Positions 52,598-60,387 of a stretch of DNA of 64,000 nt are shown piece by piece (the first letter of the stretch is position 1; every line of letters begins with the position of its first letter). The stretch is from Candidatus Accumulibacter necessarius (GTDB lineage Bacteria > Pseudomonadota > Gammaproteobacteria > Burkholderiales > Rhodocyclaceae): assembly GCA_017302435.1 (NCBI GenBank), contig JAFLDL010000012.1, forward strand, positions 34,157 through 98,156, given 5' to 3'. The position numbers and the translations under genes were made by a program. The notes below the pieces were generated by a model. That model did not search any database, had not been told where the DNA came from, and was given only the letters and a program-made list of their open reading frames with translations.

Positions 52598-53061
52598 TCA
52601 CGGTGAATCCTGATCGCCGAAACGTGACCGGAAAGGATCGACTTCGGTAGCCAGGCTCGGGGCTTCCGGAGGAACAAGGAACGGTGATTTCGACCCTACG
52701 TTCCCCGCCTGGACAAGCGGCCGCGCCTATCGCAGGGCTACGCCGGCGGCGTCATCGGGATGATGCGGTACGCAAATCAGGACCTCAGCCCGACGCACCA
52801 GAGGCTGTCTTGTAGAGCGGCGATTGACCGGCTTACGAGACTGGGAGCGTGTCAGAAGCGCGGCCGGAGACTGCCGATTGACCGCGACTCCCCTAGCCAG
52901 CGATACTTCTGGACGCGGAGAGGAATTCCCTTTGCCTTTACCCTTTGCAGGCGCATTGCTTTGCTCCAATTCTGGTCGGCGCGAAAGAGCCCCCATCGGA
53001 TTCATCTTGCGTCTTCCGACCGCCCAAAGCTCGGTCAGTCTCGCGTGATCACCAGCCGCCC

Positions 53062-54216
53062 ATGAGTAGTCGTCGCAAGAAACTGGTTCTGGTCATCGGT
53101 ACGGGATGGACCACCCCGGCCAAGCGCAGAGTCGCGCGAATGATCGGCACGACGCTGGTGGATGCGGGGTTCGGACTCGTGACCGGCAATTCGAGGGGCG
53201 TCGACTATTGGGTTGCCGATGCCTTCTGCGCCGCGCTCAAGGAGCGCGGCGAGTCGCCGCAGGGCGCATTCTGGCAAGTCTCGCTAGGGAGCATGCGTTT
53301 CTTCCGGCGTGGCGGCTTGCCGCTACCGGGTTATCCGGCCCCGGCCGAATGCTGCATCCCGGTGGATGACGTCGAGGCGTGGAAACGCGAAGCGATCGTT
53401 CGCTGCGATGCGGCGGTGATGGTTGGCGGCGGACGGAGCTCCCTGGACATCGCGCGTCGTATCATCGAGCGCGGCAAGCCGGTGTTTCCGCTCCCCTTCA
53501 TGGGTGGTCTCACCGGCTATTCGGACGACGTTTTTCAGGAGATCCTCAAGACTTGGGAAGGGCACCCGGTCCCCGGGGTGAGCCGGTCGCAATTCCTGCA
53601 ACTGGCCGAGCCTTGGGTAAGTGGAACCGGCCAACTGAGGAACCTCCTTCGCGGAACGCTCGCCGATGCCCCGGACGTCTTCATCTCCTACCGCCGCAGC
53701 GATGCGCCGGCGGCGGCCGGCCGAGTCGCCAACGACCTGGCGGAGCATTTCGGCTTGCGACGCGTGTTCCTCGACATCAGCGGCATCGCCCCCAGTCGTG
53801 CCTGGGACGAATCCATCGGAGGCGCGCTGGCGGCGTGCAAGGCGGGCGTGATCGTCATCGGCCGGTCCTGGCTCGCACCGGGACCGCAAGGCCAATCCCC
53901 TCGGCTGCACCAGCAGGACGATGTCGTTCGCAGCGAGATTGAAGCATTGCTCCAGCGTCGAAGCGCGATCTTCCCCTTGCTCGTCGAGGGCGCGCGACTT
54001 CCGGACGCCTCGGAACTTCCGGACACGCTGACCCCGCTGCTGCGCTTTCAGGCAACCGCAATCGACAATGGCGGTTGGGGAACAACCATGAGCCTGATGA
54101 TTCGTGAGATCGAATCGGTCATTCGCGATCACGAACCTGCGGGGGGCAGCGAGGCCGGTGGTTCGACGAACACGCTCTCCACGCGGATCGAACGAACCGG
54201 TCGTCTGGACATCTGA
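53062..54216 (+). CDS. SLOG-like / TIR domain fusion protein
   Basis: 384 aa from the ATG at 53062. Residues 7-170 look like a SLOG/LOG-type Rossmann nucleotide-binding domain: LVLVIGTGWTTPAKRR, a second Gly motif GLVTGNSRGVDYWVADAF and DAAVMVGGGRSSLDIARRII. Residues 204-355 are a bacterial TIR domain: DVFISYRRSDAPAAAGRVAN, VFLDISGIAPSRAWDESIGG, GVIVIGRSWLA and DDVVRSEIEALLQRR, in which Glu292 takes the place of the catalytic Glu of NAD+-cleaving TIRs. There is no signal peptide or membrane helix. TIR-SLOG partners are known in anti-phage nucleotide signalling, so a sensor-NADase role is a fair inference. Confidence 0.75.
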   Translation: MSSRRKKLVLVIGTGWTTPAKRRVARMIGTTLVDAGFGLVTGNSRGVDYWVADAFCAALKERGESPQGAFWQVSLGSMRFFRRGGLPLPGYPAPAECCIPVDDVEAWKREAIVRCDAAVMVGGGRSSLDIARRIIERGKPVFPLPFMGGLTGYSDDVFQEILKTWEGHPVPGVSRSQFLQLAEPWVSGTGQLRNLLRGTLADAPDVFISYRRSDAPAAAGRVANDLAEHFGLRRVFLDISGIAPSRAWDESIGGALAACKAGVIVIGRSWLAPGPQGQSPRLHQQDDVVRSEIEALLQRRSAIFPLLVEGARLPDASELPDTLTPLLRFQATAIDNGGWGTTMSLMIREIESVIRDHEPAGGSEAGGSTNTLSTRIERTGRLDI

Positions 54217-54397: not shown

Positions 54398-54470
54398 AAG
54401 GGCTGACTTTTGGTCAACGCGGACTGGCCTGCTGTGGAATCGGTGTCCAGTTTCCCGTGGAATACGCATG

Positions 54471-54593
54471 CTGCCAGTCTGATCCGGCCGGTGATGCTTG
54501 GCCTCGGCGGTTTCCCATCGAGTTGGCCGCTCCAGGATTCCAAGCAGCCACTGAGTTTTCGCGGTTTGCTGTCGGCAACCGACCGGTGGCAGA
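54471..54593 (+). repeat. Dispersed intergenic repeat, copy A
   Basis: A stretch starting near CTGCCAGTCTGATCCGGCC and ending near GTCGGCAACCGACCGGTGG matches the reverse complement of 58679-58799 at roughly 85 % by hand alignment. It is followed by REP-like hairpin sequence (CGAAAGC...GCTTTCG near 54641-54662). The 54398-54817 interval otherwise holds only this repeat and the left end of the IS200 element. Confidence 0.75.
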
Positions 54594-54699
54594 CGGTGGA
54601 GGCTCTTGAAAGCAGTCCTTCACCGCACCACCGGACAACGCGAAAGCGGCCGTTCGGCTTTCGGCGGTGCTATTCTCGCCTGACCGGCAGCTTTTAACC

Positions 54700-55372
54700 A
54701 AGACGGGAAATCCCCCGGCTCTGCCGGGGTGGCCGTAGAAGTTTGACATTTTAGGGGGTCCATCAGGGAAACTTCAGGTCGTGAGCCGCCAAGCACATGA
54801 CTGTGTGGAGAATCCTGATGGACGAGTTTGATGTCCTAAGCCACTCGAAGTGGGAGTGCAAATATCACGTGGTGTTTATCCCAAAGTGCCGACGCAAGAC
54901 GCTCTATGAGCAGTTGCGACGATACCTCGGGGAGTTGTTCCGCAAGCTGGCCGAGCAAAAGGAGAGCAGGATCGAAGAACGGCATCTGATGCCCGATCAC
55001 GTCCACATGCTAATCTCGATCCCTCCGAAGCACGCGGTGTCGCAGGTGGTTGGGTACATCAAGGGCAAGAGCGCGATTCACTTGGCGCGGGTGTATGGTG
55101 AGCACAAGAGGAACTTTGTCGGCCAAAGCTTCTGGGCGCGCGGGTACTTCGTCTCGACCATAGGGCGAGACGAAGAGGTGATCCGGCGGTACATACGGGA
55201 CCAGGAGCAAGAGGACAAACGACTCGATCAACTGAGCCTGTGGCGCTCATTTGCCACCTTTAGGTGGCGCAAGAAAGTCAGGGTCGCGTTAGCGTCCCTG
55301 TTTAGCCGCTTTGAGCGGCTCACACATTGAAAGCCCCCGGCTCTGCCGGGGGATGGTTACTCTGGAATTGTA
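54700..55372 (+). mobile_element. IS200/IS605-type element
   Basis: A single tnpA gene is bracketed by two near-identical short hairpins in the same orientation: CCCCCGGCTCTGCCGGGG at 54712-54729 and CCCCCGGCTCTGCCGGGGG at 55334-55352. Subterminal hairpins of this kind are the recognition ends of IS200/IS605 elements, which have no inverted repeats. There is no tnpB. The exact ends are uncertain by 10-20 bases. Confidence 0.75.
54818..55330 (+). CDS. tnpA: IS200-type Y1 transposase TnpA
   Basis: 170 aa from the ATG at 54818 (TGGAG upstream). HUH transposase features are WECKYHVVFIPKCRRKTLY, the HUH motif in LMPDHVHMLISIPP, SQVVGYIKGKSAIHLAR and FWARGYFVSTIGRDEEVI, with Tyr available for the covalent DNA link. 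The last 25 residues (FATFRWRKKVRVALASLF...) run into the right end of the element and are longer than usual for IS200 TnpA. Appears functional. Confidence 0.9.
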   Translation: MDEFDVLSHSKWECKYHVVFIPKCRRKTLYEQLRRYLGELFRKLAEQKESRIEERHLMPDHVHMLISIPPKHAVSQVVGYIKGKSAIHLARVYGEHKRNFVGQSFWARGYFVSTIGRDEEVIRRYIRDQEQEDKRLDQLSLWRSFATFRWRKKVRVALASLFSRFERLTH

Positions 55373-55382
55373 AGAATCCACC

Positions 55383-58300
55383 ATGCCGAAAAAATTGACC
55401 TGGTTGCACATCTCCGACATCCATTTCTGTCCGCATATGGAATGGCGCGACAGCACGGCTAGAAGTGCGCTGCTGAACTATCTAACAGCCCATTTCGCAA
55501 CGAGCGGCGCCCGGCGTCCAGACTTGATTTTCTGTACCGGAGACATTGCATTCGGCCATAGTTTATCGAAGCCAATCAGAGATCAGTATTCGATAGCAGA
55601 GCAATTTTTCTATGACCTGCTCCATGTATGCGGGAGAGAAGGGGCTCCACTAGCACGTGAACGATTGTTCATCGTGCCTGGCAATCACGACGTCAATCGC
55701 GATGCAATCAACGCAGATGCCCAGTCTACGTTAACAACTTGGGCAGGGAATTCAGCCACATATGTCGAGAAGATCAACCAGCGTTTCTACGAAAAACCAA
55801 TTGAGTTCCTTGAGACAATGCGGCGGCTGGATGAATATGGCGATTTTATAAGAACCCACCTCCCTCACCAAGACGACCCGGAACAGAGGCATGTCTATGC
55901 TAAGAATCTGGAGATAAACGGCATATCTGTCGGGGTATCCGGATTCAACTCTGCCTGGACGTGTTCGGGACTTGAAGACGACCGCAACTTATGGTTTGCC
56001 GCCGAGTGGCAGTTCAACGCGGCAAGGGAAAAGTTGAAAGATTCACAAGTTCGTATTGGCTTAATACATCACCCTATTGATTGGTTCAACCAAACAGAAA
56101 GGGAGCAAGCGACCCGGCGCATCGCGAGCGATTTTGACTTTTGGTTACATGGGCATAGTCATAGTGCATGGGTCACGCCGGTGCAGAGTCACATTGTTCT
56201 GGCGGCAGGGGCCGTTGGTGCGGCTAGTAGCGACGAATTCGGAGTTAATCTATGCACAATAAGTCTCACAGATAGCACTGGTAAGGCGATGTTACATGCC
56301 AAGAAGGCTGGTGCGTCCGGTTGGACAATTATGCCTATTGATACATTTGCTCCAACCGGTCTGTGGGCATTTGACCTTCCTGTTCGCTTAAGAACATCTC
56401 TGGACCAGTCGAACCAACGTCAATCAGAAATTCCACCGACTGCACCAAAGGGTCCAGCACCATTCGACTATGTTGATAGCCATCTGTCTAGCGAATTAGA
56501 ACAAGCCCTCCAATCGTTCTCAAGCCAACCCAGAGTATGGGTCGAACCAATCCTAAGTAGAAAGGCGGAAGTTGAAAAGGGGGCGAGATCAGAACCGCGC
56601 GTCTCGATTTCTGAACTATTAGGTTTAACTACATCTTATGTCATTAAAGCACCGCCCCAGTATGGACTATCTTGTTTGGCCAAATATCTAGTCAGACAGG
56701 CATGGCGTAAGCCAAATCGTGAATTCTGGTTATTTCTCGATGCCAACCTGCTAAAACCGAATTTGGCCTCGATTAATGAAGAAATCGACCGCGTTCTTAT
56801 CCCATTGAACCTCACCACGAAAGATATTGGCCGAGTAGTCTTGGACTCTTGGTCACCTACCGAAAAGGATGGGTCAAAACTGCTTCGAAAAATCATTGAA
56901 AAATTCGCAGAGACTCCACTGACTTGCATGCATCGCGCGGACACCTCGATGGTTGGACTTACGTCTGTTCTCGAACAGGGGCGTACTTTTGAGACTTACT
57001 TCCTTTGGACATTGCCAAGAGAAGACATCAGAAAAATTGTTTGCAGCTATAACGAAACACGACAAATTGGCGAAGATGACGCAGTAACCAAGCGCCTGGT
57101 TTCCGATCTTGATGTCCTTAATCTGCACAGGACACCACTCAACTGCATTACGCTTCTAAAGGTATCGGAATTGGACTTCGAGGAAAGCCCAGTTAACCGA
57201 TCAGAGATGCTCAAACGAGTGTTGTTTTTGCTGTTTAATACTGATGGGATCCCGACATATAAGTCAAAACCAGATCTAAAGGACAGTGAGCATGTTCTTG
57301 GCTATTTCTGCGAACTTCTGGTGCGTGAAGGGAATTATTTCTTTACTAGAAATCGGTTCTTGCTCGAAGTGCAAAAATTCTGCAAGGATAGCCTCATCGA
57401 ACTGGATACGCACGTTGTCTTTGACGTCCTCTATCAAAACCATATTTTGATTAGGAAGGGACACGAATTCTATTTCCGATTCTCATACTGGATTTTTTAC
57501 TTCGTTGCACAACGCATGCACCACCACGCGGATTTTGCTGAATATATTCTCTCAGAAATGCGTTACGCGCAATATCCCGAGATTATCGAGTTCTATACCG
57601 GCACAGATAGGAAGCGGGACGATGCCCTGAGGGTTATAATAAGCGACTTAGGTAAATGCTATCTTACAGTAAAAAAATATTGCGGCTTTCCAGAGAATCT
57701 AGATCCATACGAGCATGCCAAGTGGGAAGCGTCGCCGGAAGCTCAGGCAAGAATGCAGGAAGTCATAACAAATGGAGTGATTGACTCAAATCTACCTGCA
57801 GTCATAAAAGACCGATATGCAGATAGCACCTATGACCCTGCTCGCCCTTACAACCAAACAATCGCTAGCATCCTGACTGAGCATTCTGTCCTATGCTTGA
57901 TGAAGCTAACTAGCGCTGCAGCGCGAGCACTTCGAAATAGTGACTACGCTCGTCCCGAAGCCAAGCGTCAGTTGCTTGGCGAAATAATGCGGTCTTGGGA
58001 CCAGTTGTCAAAAGTCGTACTAATAACGGCTCCGATGCTGGCTGAGCACGGCTATGCGTCGTACGATAAAGCAAACTTCTTCCTTGTTGGAGATTTTGGA
58101 AAGGACAAAAACGAGCGATTGTCGAGGATATGTGTTTCCATCCCATACAATATCGTCGCGTGGCACCAAGACGATTTGTACTCGCAAAAAATGGGCCCGC
58201 TTCTATTCGATCAACTCGAAAACCCCGAGCTCAGCAACATTGCACGGCATGAGCTTATGCTTTTCCTTATTAGCCAACGCCCAAGATATTGGTCGAAATA

Positions 58301-58529
58301 TGTGCAGGAATATATCGTTCGCATAGCTAGAAATTCATTCTATCTCTTTGATGTTTGCGACTCACTAAAACAGCAATACAGATACGGATTTGCGTCGTCT
58401 CATACGCTCAACGAAATTGAACGCCTAATCAAAATGTCCACGGCGAAACATTTAACGGGTAAGAAGGCTCCGGGCGAAAAATCGATAGCGAAGATCAAGA
58501 GAATTTCGAGCCCCGACCGTTCCAAATAG
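55383..58529 (+). CDS. Calcineurin-type phosphoesterase fused to a large STAND-NTPase-like region
   Basis: A 1048-aa cytosolic protein. Residues 5-300 form a complete metallophosphoesterase: WLHISDIHFCP (Asp12, His14), CTGDIAFG (Asp54), VPGNHDVNR (Asn101, His102), LIHHPIDW (His229) and LHGHSHSAW (His258, His260). Residues 400-700 resemble a STAND-type NTPase in layout, but the P-loop is replaced by KAPPQYGLSCLA (423-434) with no GKS/T, and the Walker B place reads RVVLDSWSP. The C-terminal 350 residues are helical and unrecognised, perhaps a sensor. The gene is visibly AT-richer than its neighbours, and lies 10-30 bases from an IS200 end with no good ribosome site. A defence or conflict role is inferred. 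Confidence 0.7.
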   Translation: MPKKLTWLHISDIHFCPHMEWRDSTARSALLNYLTAHFATSGARRPDLIFCTGDIAFGHSLSKPIRDQYSIAEQFFYDLLHVCGREGAPLARERLFIVPGNHDVNRDAINADAQSTLTTWAGNSATYVEKINQRFYEKPIEFLETMRRLDEYGDFIRTHLPHQDDPEQRHVYAKNLEINGISVGVSGFNSAWTCSGLEDDRNLWFAAEWQFNAAREKLKDSQVRIGLIHHPIDWFNQTEREQATRRIASDFDFWLHGHSHSAWVTPVQSHIVLAAGAVGAASSDEFGVNLCTISLTDSTGKAMLHAKKAGASGWTIMPIDTFAPTGLWAFDLPVRLRTSLDQSNQRQSEIPPTAPKGPAPFDYVDSHLSSELEQALQSFSSQPRVWVEPILSRKAEVEKGARSEPRVSISELLGLTTSYVIKAPPQYGLSCLAKYLVRQAWRKPNREFWLFLDANLLKPNLASINEEIDRVLIPLNLTTKDIGRVVLDSWSPTEKDGSKLLRKIIEKFAETPLTCMHRADTSMVGLTSVLEQGRTFETYFLWTLPREDIRKIVCSYNETRQIGEDDAVTKRLVSDLDVLNLHRTPLNCITLLKVSELDFEESPVNRSEMLKRVLFLLFNTDGIPTYKSKPDLKDSEHVLGYFCELLVREGNYFFTRNRFLLEVQKFCKDSLIELDTHVVFDVLYQNHILIRKGHEFYFRFSYWIFYFVAQRMHHHADFAEYILSEMRYAQYPEIIEFYTGTDRKRDDALRVIISDLGKCYLTVKKYCGFPENLDPYEHAKWEASPEAQARMQEVITNGVIDSNLPAVIKDRYADSTYDPARPYNQTIASILTEHSVLCLMKLTSAAARALRNSDYARPEAKRQLLGEIMRSWDQLSKVVLITAPMLAEHGYASYDKANFFLVGDFGKDKNERLSRICVSIPYNIVAWHQDDLYSQKMGPLLFDQLENPELSNIARHELMLFLISQRPRYWSKYVQEYIVRIARNSFYLFDVCDSLKQQYRYGFASSHTLNEIERLIKMSTAKHLTGKKAPGEKSIAKIKRISSPDRSK

Positions 58530-58678
58530 CGATTTTTGCTCGATGCTTCGTAGACCTTCGACGGGCATGCGGGTAGTCACGTCAATGACGAGGGAATGAT
58601 CGCTTGGTGTTGTGTGAACCGTCGGGGACAACCCAGCGTTTCATTTTTTTGTATCAGCTTTCCATAGGCCCAAGTGAC

Positions 58679-58799
58679 CGCAACGGGTCGGTTGCCGACA
58701 GCAAGCCACGAAAACCCAGTGGCCGCTTGTGGTCTTGGAGCGGCCAGCTGGATGGGAAAACGCCGAGGCCGAGGATCAACGGCCGGATCAGACTGGAAG
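58679..58799 (-). repeat. Dispersed intergenic repeat, copy B (inverted relative to copy A)
   Basis: This matches copy A (54471-54593) on the opposite strand. Downstream, 58828-58885 (ACCGACCCTTTGCGGACG, then CTCTTGAAAAGCAGCCGTTC) again resembles the stretch just after copy A at 54577-54625 on the plus strand. The rest of the 58530-58989 gap holds the attC-like site and no gene. Confidence 0.7.
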
Positions 58800-58904
58800 C
58801 AGTCGTTCACATTTTTTGGCCCACCGGCTGCCACCGACCCTTTGCGGACGCTCAGTCTCTTGAAAAGCAGCCGTTCATCCGAACGGGCCTCAGGTACAAG
58901 GCTC

Positions 58905-58989: not shown

Positions 58990-60387
58990 TTATCGTTTGT
59001 TTCGCGCATTTCGACGACGTTGAACCTCTATTGCCCGCCGCCCGGCCTCCTGGAGCGCTACATGGTATGGGGTGACCGCTTCGTCGTCCTCGTACGGTAT
59101 CCATGCTGGTACCCCATATGAATGTGCGACCGGATAGAACATTCGAAGAGCCTGAACGAGAACTCGGGCCTCATTGCTTTCAATTTCCGGATGGCGAGAA
59201 ACTTCAATGTAGTTCTCAGGTCCAGTGAGCCGCGGCCATGCAGTCATCGAATCCAAGCACATCGGCAAACCGTGTTCCTCGAATTTGGCTAGGACATCAG
59301 GGACATCGATGTATGGAATTGTGCGCCAACAATTCAGAAGCTTAACCTTCAAATAATAGCTCTCAGTCCAGTCGGCGAGCTTGCATAGGCGCTCCTGAAT
59401 CTCTGCGACGCCTACAAGAATGTTGAAGACATAGTTCAGATCGACTATGCGCAGCGAATTGGTGGAATATTTGCCAAGAAGAGCGATGAACCGTTGCATG
59501 TGCTCATATCCGGATAAGTCCAGTGCCAGCAGGTCGCGATGATCTGGTTGAAAGAGTGGCAAGGGAATGAATACGTCGCTCACTAGGTTTCTGCCCAGTC
59601 GCCATGTGAGTGACAAGTTCTGGGGGTCGTTGCCACTAAGTTGGCGCCCAGTGTAGCCAGTGCCTGATGTGTGGACGGTGTCAAAGGGAATTGAGCTGAC
59701 ACCGCCCGTTTCTCCGAGCGCTGCGCGTATCTTGTCATCGTCATCTCCAATCCAAATGTCACGCTCTTCCCAGCAGTCGGAGATGAGCATTAGCCGTACA
59801 TATGGAAGAGATTTTTCATGCGTAGACAACTCTGGATCTCGGTCGTACCAGTCCTTGTGTGATCGCTTAACGTCATCCGCCCGCCGCCACAATTGGTCCA
59901 AAATGAATCTGTCATTCTCTGCCTTAGGCTCGGAAGCATCGGCCACTCTGCGGTAGATTTGTCCAGACTTGTGAACATGCGGTGCAGCGCAGCTTCGTGC
60001 AGTCCAAATGCAGATCACCGCTCGATTCTCTGGGAGTTCAATTTCAGAATCTGGTCCCCAGAGAACCTTCGTCTCAAAGTGGGGGGTAGGGTTCAAGTGG
60101 TCGGTGGAGGACTTCCTCAGACGCTGTAGGATTGAATCAACGTCGTCGCGTGGCACTCCGGGAAAGGCCCCTGCAACAGGATTCACTTTCGACTCCTCCT
60201 GAATACCCAAGAAGAGCCAACCTCCGTAGGTATTGGCAAATGCTGACACGGACTTTGCAAGGGCGGCTGCGTTTGGCGCTTCTTGCTTGTACTCGATGTA
60301 CCAGCCCTCAGATGCAAGCTTTAGTACCTTCAAATCTGCCGTCTGAAGATCGCGAATTTGTTTGTCGAACGGGGAATACGGTTGCAT
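58990..60387 (-). CDS. AlbA_2/Schlafen-type DNA-binding domain protein
   Basis: A 465-aa protein. Residues 25-165 form the AlbA_2 domain: WYIEYKQEAPNAAALAKSVS, AFANTYGGWLFLGIQEES, then HKSGQIYRRVADASEPKAEN. The Glu-x-Lys with FANTxGG pattern is diagnostic. The remaining 300 residues (for example FIPLPLFQPDHRDLLALDLSGYEHMQ) are not recognised. AlbA_2 proteins are often in phage-defence or helicase contexts. Codon use is more AT-rich than in the core genes. It is flanked by an attC-like site downstream and an R-box-like GTTAGGC upstream, suggesting a gene cassette. Confidence 0.75.
   Translation of the reverse strand: MQPYSPFDKQIRDLQTADLKVLKLASEGWYIEYKQEAPNAAALAKSVSAFANTYGGWLFLGIQEESKVNPVAGAFPGVPRDDVDSILQRLRKSSTDHLNPTPHFETKVLWGPDSEIELPENRAVICIWTARSCAAPHVHKSGQIYRRVADASEPKAENDRFILDQLWRRADDVKRSHKDWYDRDPELSTHEKSLPYVRLMLISDCWEERDIWIGDDDDKIRAALGETGGVSSIPFDTVHTSGTGYTGRQLSGNDPQNLSLTWRLGRNLVSDVFIPLPLFQPDHRDLLALDLSGYEHMQRFIALLGKYSTNSLRIVDLNYVFNILVGVAEIQERLCKLADWTESYYLKVKLLNCWRTIPYIDVPDVLAKFEEHGLPMCLDSMTAWPRLTGPENYIEVSRHPEIESNEARVLVQALRMFYPVAHSYGVPAWIPYEDDEAVTPYHVALQEAGRRAIEVQRRRNARNKR

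Follow-up and report, generated by a model that had tools for sequence, protein, structure and literature searches.

NLR and STAND receptors are commonly regarded as switches driven by nucleotides, and the locus described here raises the question of what a protein built on their plan can be once its nucleotide-binding loop is missing. It lies in a 64,000-nucleotide stretch of Candidatus Accumulibacter necessarius DNA (the window; contig JAFLDL010000012.1, positions 34,157 to 98,156) and consists of a single gene whose product joins an N-terminal phosphoesterase to a STAND-like body and a helical C-terminus (Table 1). With a probability of about 0.6, we read this product as a single-protein conflict receptor, most likely antiphage and probably acting through abortive infection, of the DS-8-like metallophosphoesterase-nSTAND4 kind, which has lost the canonical ATP-binding loop.

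The original prediction, made from the letters alone, had proposed an effector-core-sensor layout with an intact phosphoesterase. The order of effector, STAND body and C-terminal region held, as did the intact phosphoesterase. Residues D12, H14, D54, N101, H102, H229/H230, H258 and H260 fill all the positions that we take to be the metal ligands of the metallophosphoesterase motifs. The middle of the protein is predicted to adopt a STAND/NACHT-like, NLR-like fold with an AAA+-like core and helical regions, in keeping with the STAND-like body first proposed. The AlphaFold2 body model resembles NLRP3, NOD2 and NLRC4 as well as ORC and RFC, and AAA+ cores (RFC, Cdc6, ORC, ClpA) match it at 3.5-4.3 Å over 183-200 residues, a likeness that belongs to a predicted model and carries the caution due to helical models. 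The helical C-terminal region, which contains a conserved ALRNS motif at residues 849-853, would be the sensor.

At the nucleotide site, the strand-loop-helix segment has the sequence IKAPPQYGLSCLA. The P-loop had been said to be replaced in this region, and the alignment agrees: KAPPQYGLS occupies the place of the Walker A motif GxxxxGK[ST], with no lysine, while the Walker B aspartate is present as D488. The same combination, Walker A lysine absent and Walker B aspartate kept, is found in 23/23 proteins, that is, the window protein and 22 body relatives from five named phyla (two alignments of 22 proteins each, of slightly different composition, give 23 distinct proteins with the window's included). 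In one 22-protein alignment the lysine column holds leucine in 20 and alanine in 2, and the column of the first P-loop glycine holds alanine in 16, serine in 5 and glycine in 1. Judged from these alignments, loss of the P-loop is a conserved trait of the clade. A gene in decay that had lost its P-loop only recently would fit the low GC (guanine plus cytosine) content and the adjoining insertion sequence (IS) and repeats; this reading is scarcely credible because the loss is conserved clade-wide, being the same in 22/22 clade bodies, and the 1048-codon frame is open. The ratio of nonsynonymous to synonymous substitution (dN/dS) also speaks against decay: measured against a 74%-identical copy from the same genus, it is 0.094 for the gene as a whole and 0.11 for the STAND core, dS being close to saturation.

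Since the Walker B aspartate is kept throughout the clade, a dead and an altered NTPase are both left standing. An altered enzyme would use the non-canonical loop, of the form [FY]G[LA][ST], together with that aspartate to hold a nucleotide or another ligand, and would switch on ligand exchange. The constancy of D488 (22/22), of G428 and of the aromatic residue before it would suit such a site, as would the retention of the predicted fold, but the Walker A position has no lysine, and K422, just ahead of the loop and a lysine in 15 of the 22 clade bodies, is unlikely to be the signature lysine of a MinD-type motif as we take that motif to be. We regard an altered NTPase as unlikely, though worth keeping in mind.

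Relatives with intact P-loops, for which a search had been proposed, do exist. A first profile built from four sequences led to 20 loci in reference genomes (L numbers below denote loci). The tree separates the 22 clade bodies, by a long branch with support 100/99, from six nSTAND4 relatives, five of which carry GKT and one (L045) GCT. Among the outside-clade relatives compared, L082 and L083 included and a broken fragment in genome G843 not counted, 7/8 keep GK[ST], the eighth being L045. Among relatives with intact P-loops, those of phosphoesterase-nSTAND4 type stand nearest. With hhalign, the clade profile aligned over 563 columns with L046, whose P-loop is intact (probability 97.3, E 2.2e-11), and weakly with L047 (28.6%, 182 columns); G511, the genome of L046, did not come up in the six-frame profile search. 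The nSTAND_NTPase4 family PF24406 scores above cut-off in 11/22 clade proteins scanned; outside the clade, L083 falls below that cut-off. As separate observations, the phosphoesterase-nSTAND4 protein L045 (3792-6848, minus strand) reads GEEKAGCT and seems to have lost the lysine independently, outside the clade, and L050 in G843 (1465-2774) is a distant relative with phosphoesterase and body, split into two open reading frames (ORFs), whose loop EARSEYGGTT likewise has no Walker A lysine. A Pseudomonas mandelii plasmid (L012, 8028-9044) holds only the C-terminal part of a body, as an ORF of 338 residues; a gene with the annotation CBASS oligonucleotide cyclase lies about 4.5 kb away.

DS-8, from the DefensePredictor paper, is a validated single-protein antiphage defence of metallophosphatase-NACHT type, and mutating a predicted ATPase residue abolished defence (PMC13092281). 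Like the window protein, it combines an N-terminal metallophosphatase and a STAND/NACHT middle in one chain; the paper aligns its metallophosphatase with SMPDL3A (PMC13092281), with which that of the window protein aligns too. The window protein also has the catalytic residues expected of the DS-8 metallophosphatase, and it matches models of candidate and validated antiphage proteins, namely PADLOC PDC-S60 (E 2.1e-47, best over the phosphoesterase part) and NCBIfam DS8_antiphage (NF053861; E 3.6e-36, two stretches, best at residues 9-268). Unlike DS-8, it has no Walker A lysine and hence no functional NACHT P-loop, and it reaches 124.3 of the 790 bits that are the curated cut-off of the NF053861 equivalog, so it was rejected as a DS-8 equivalog; L047, an intact-P-loop relative, is one at 962.8 bits. 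Of two further clade members scanned, L027 fits the DS-8 model far past the phosphoesterase, over 6-682 (E 1.6e-43), and L020 best over 9-302. On these profile matches the clade is kin to DS-8, and the window protein itself is not DS-8. More broadly, the clade has the Pfam segment and its layout of effector and body in common with nSTAND_NTPase4 proteins that bear phosphoesterase or TIR effectors. The label of a new conflict system, with a novel phosphoesterase effector on a STAND body, was too strong, because in DS-8 a phosphoesterase already sits on a STAND switch, and examples of inactive STANDs are in the literature. What is new, as far as the searches reached, is that the DS-8-like nSTAND4 conflict proteins include a conserved branch that lacks the P-loop and swaps effectors.

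The body of this clade carries three N-terminal effectors, namely a phosphoesterase, a DUF4062-type domain and a trypsin-like protease, and effector and body are fused in all 21 unbroken relatives read. Phosphoesterase members are above the Pfam cut-off in 9/9 cases (the window protein, L019, L020, L021, L023, L027, L035, L036, L038) and trypsin-like members in 3/3 (L025, L031, L032). Ten DUF4062-type proteins were scanned: three are above cut-off (L011, L033, L034), six match more weakly (L022, L024, L026, L028, L029, L037; E 1.7e-4 to 0.023) and L030 gave no DUF4062 match; these last seven and the unscanned L071 were assigned by the appearance of the N-terminus. The DUF4062 family consists of TIR-like NADases that act in phage defence (PMC13174449). 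The Swarozyc DUF4062 NADase shares this effector type with ten rows of the tree, weakly assigned in most; its Klebsiella protein has a helix-turn-helix/winged auxiliary domain instead of the clade body (PMC13174449). A gene of 101 residues lies upstream of each trypsin-type member and overlaps its start, the other copies being 53-55% identical to the first; by number and position these genes are taken to be the three Trypco1 matches among 148 neighbour ORFs of relatives. Trypco1 and trypsin both belong to published conflict systems (PMC7159879). On the tree the effectors require 4 changes with the outgroup and 3 without it, versus 9.7 in shuffles, a clustering that partly reflects mere kinship.

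The clade is rare. Its patchy spread and the apparent mobility of the gene are as had been expected. Matches were found in 3/101 relatives, 2/369 genomes of the class, 2/398 of the phylum and 2/296 of a Bacteroidota-side set, each count including the own or centre genome; one of the three, in G050, ends at a contig end and covers residues 4-277 only. The closest copy found is from Candidatus Accumulibacter meliphilus. DNA similarity to the same-genus copy (75% identity) begins at the start codon and stops 37 bases before the gene end, with one other match of 64 bases between the loci in the 12 kb compared. Recent transfer had been argued from low GC, an IS neighbour and flanking repeats. The first two stand, with 46.8% GC in the gene against 61.4% across the window and an IS200-type transposase ORF ending 52 bases ahead of the start codon; the 150-nucleotide repeats exist but are not special to the gene, since their family is dispersed over 10 places in the genome, both arms counted. 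The same-genus copy is bracketed by 60-nucleotide inverted repeats, also of a dispersed family (5 places, arms included). Near-identical GC-rich palindromic sequences at 54707-54729 and 55329-55354 bracket the transposase and are perhaps the ends of its element. The likeness of the phosphoesterase, taken alone, to Rv0805, GpdQ and purple acid phosphatases would suit an enzyme of housekeeping or metabolism that is fused to a helical domain and has no role in conflict. The low GC, the patchy distribution, the swapping of effectors on one body and a DNA similarity that, between two genomes of the genus, is limited to the gene speak against this reading and make it very improbable.

In the multi-gene systems described so far, inactive STANDs work together with partners (PMC8195603, PMC7159879); a role as nucleic-acid receptors has been put forward for them by one group of authors (PMC8195603, PMC12839542). 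The iSTAND, iSTAND2 and nSTAND2-partner STANDs (PMC7159879, PMC8195603) and BrxB/BrxF (PMC12839542) likewise combine a STAND fold, eroded nucleotide motifs and a defence setting, and the effector types TIR, trypsin and Trypco1 overlap between those systems and the clade. They are, as described there, parts of multi-gene systems, whereas the clade holds effector, pseudo-switch and presumed sensor in one protein, the trypsin type adding a second small gene; unlike them, the clade keeps the Walker B aspartate. By analogy the window protein might be a pseudo-STAND of the sensor type, dependent on an active STAND or a chaperone encoded elsewhere, as in nSTAND2 pairs or MoxR-vWA iSTAND systems. This is improbable given the effector-body fusion, a single PF24406 match in the genome (other STAND types were not searched for) and no match to MoxR, vWA or STAND among the six other window genes scanned against Pfam, which are not all of its ORFs. 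For genes adjacent to the relatives, the view covers 25 of 161 families.

The gene is flanked on one side by a TIR protein, plausibly a second conflict gene, and on the other by a Schlafen AlbA_2 gene that looks strain-specific, as among the matches listed for its DNA no other genome matched beyond short flanking repeats. A copy on a Chryseobacterium plasmid sits amid type I restriction-modification genes. The surroundings of other relatives are not defence-dense: a PADLOC match at E <=1e-10 occurs in 1/10 selected neighbours, and the commonest PADLOC family among 148/149 neighbour ORFs has 5 members.

Table 1. Features of the window and, in the last row, of three related loci.
Feature	Coordinates	Strand	Remarks
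TIR protein	52945-54216	+	sub-cut-off SLOG (LDcluster4) match; weak matches to Thoeris and SAVED-TIR models
Inverted repeat around IS and gene, left arm (150 nt)	54464..54613	+	arms 81% complementary
IS200/IS605-family Y1 transposase	54797..55330	+	NF033573 E 1.3e-42; PF01797 E 1.7e-37
Whole gene, 1048 residues	55383..58529	+	phosphoesterase, P-loop-less nSTAND4-type body, helical C-terminus; open frame
Calcineurin-type metallophosphoesterase effector, residues 8-261	55404..56165	+	Pfam Metallophos PF00149, E 2.3e-10
STAND/AAA+ nucleotide-site core, about residues 385-560	56535..57062	+	strand-helix order in predicted models
KAPPQYGLS, residues 422-430, in P-loop place	56646..56672	+	aligns with GxxxxGK[ST] of nSTAND4 relatives
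Walker B-like RVVLDS, D488	56832..56849	+	Asp kept in 22/22 clade bodies
nSTAND_NTPase4 (PF24406) segment, residues 652-708	57336..57506	+	E 3.6e-7, 30.6 bits (cut-off 27)
Helical C-terminal region, presumed sensor	57528..58490	+	AlphaFold2 models
Inverted repeat, right arm (150 nt)	58657..58806	-	pairs with left arm
Schlafen AlbA_2 protein	58990-60387	-	opposite side of gene from TIR protein
101-residue Trypco1-type genes	L025:5082-5384; L031:5112-5414; L032:3530-3832		conserved among trypsin-type members

A single-protein receptor of this kind would work as follows. The helical C-terminal region would bind an invader-derived trigger, and this binding, not nucleotide exchange, would free the autoinhibited pseudo-STAND core and let protomers assemble. 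Assembly would turn on the phosphoesterase, which may then destroy a nucleotide, cyclic nucleotide or nucleic acid required for phage growth or cell survival. Extended to the clade, and at slightly less than even odds, a whole NLR-like receptor branch may have given up nucleotide-driven switching, with one pseudo-STAND body, a swappable phosphoesterase, TIR-like NADase or protease, and assembly driven purely by the trigger.

A branch without the P-loop lysine, in which effector, predicted fold and Walker B aspartate are nonetheless retained and three effectors are swapped, offers a natural comparison. Set beside DS-8, the clade lets one ask which part of STAND activation truly requires ATP. 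The window protein may work without the usual fuel, the loop that grips ATP being absent from it and from the close relatives examined.
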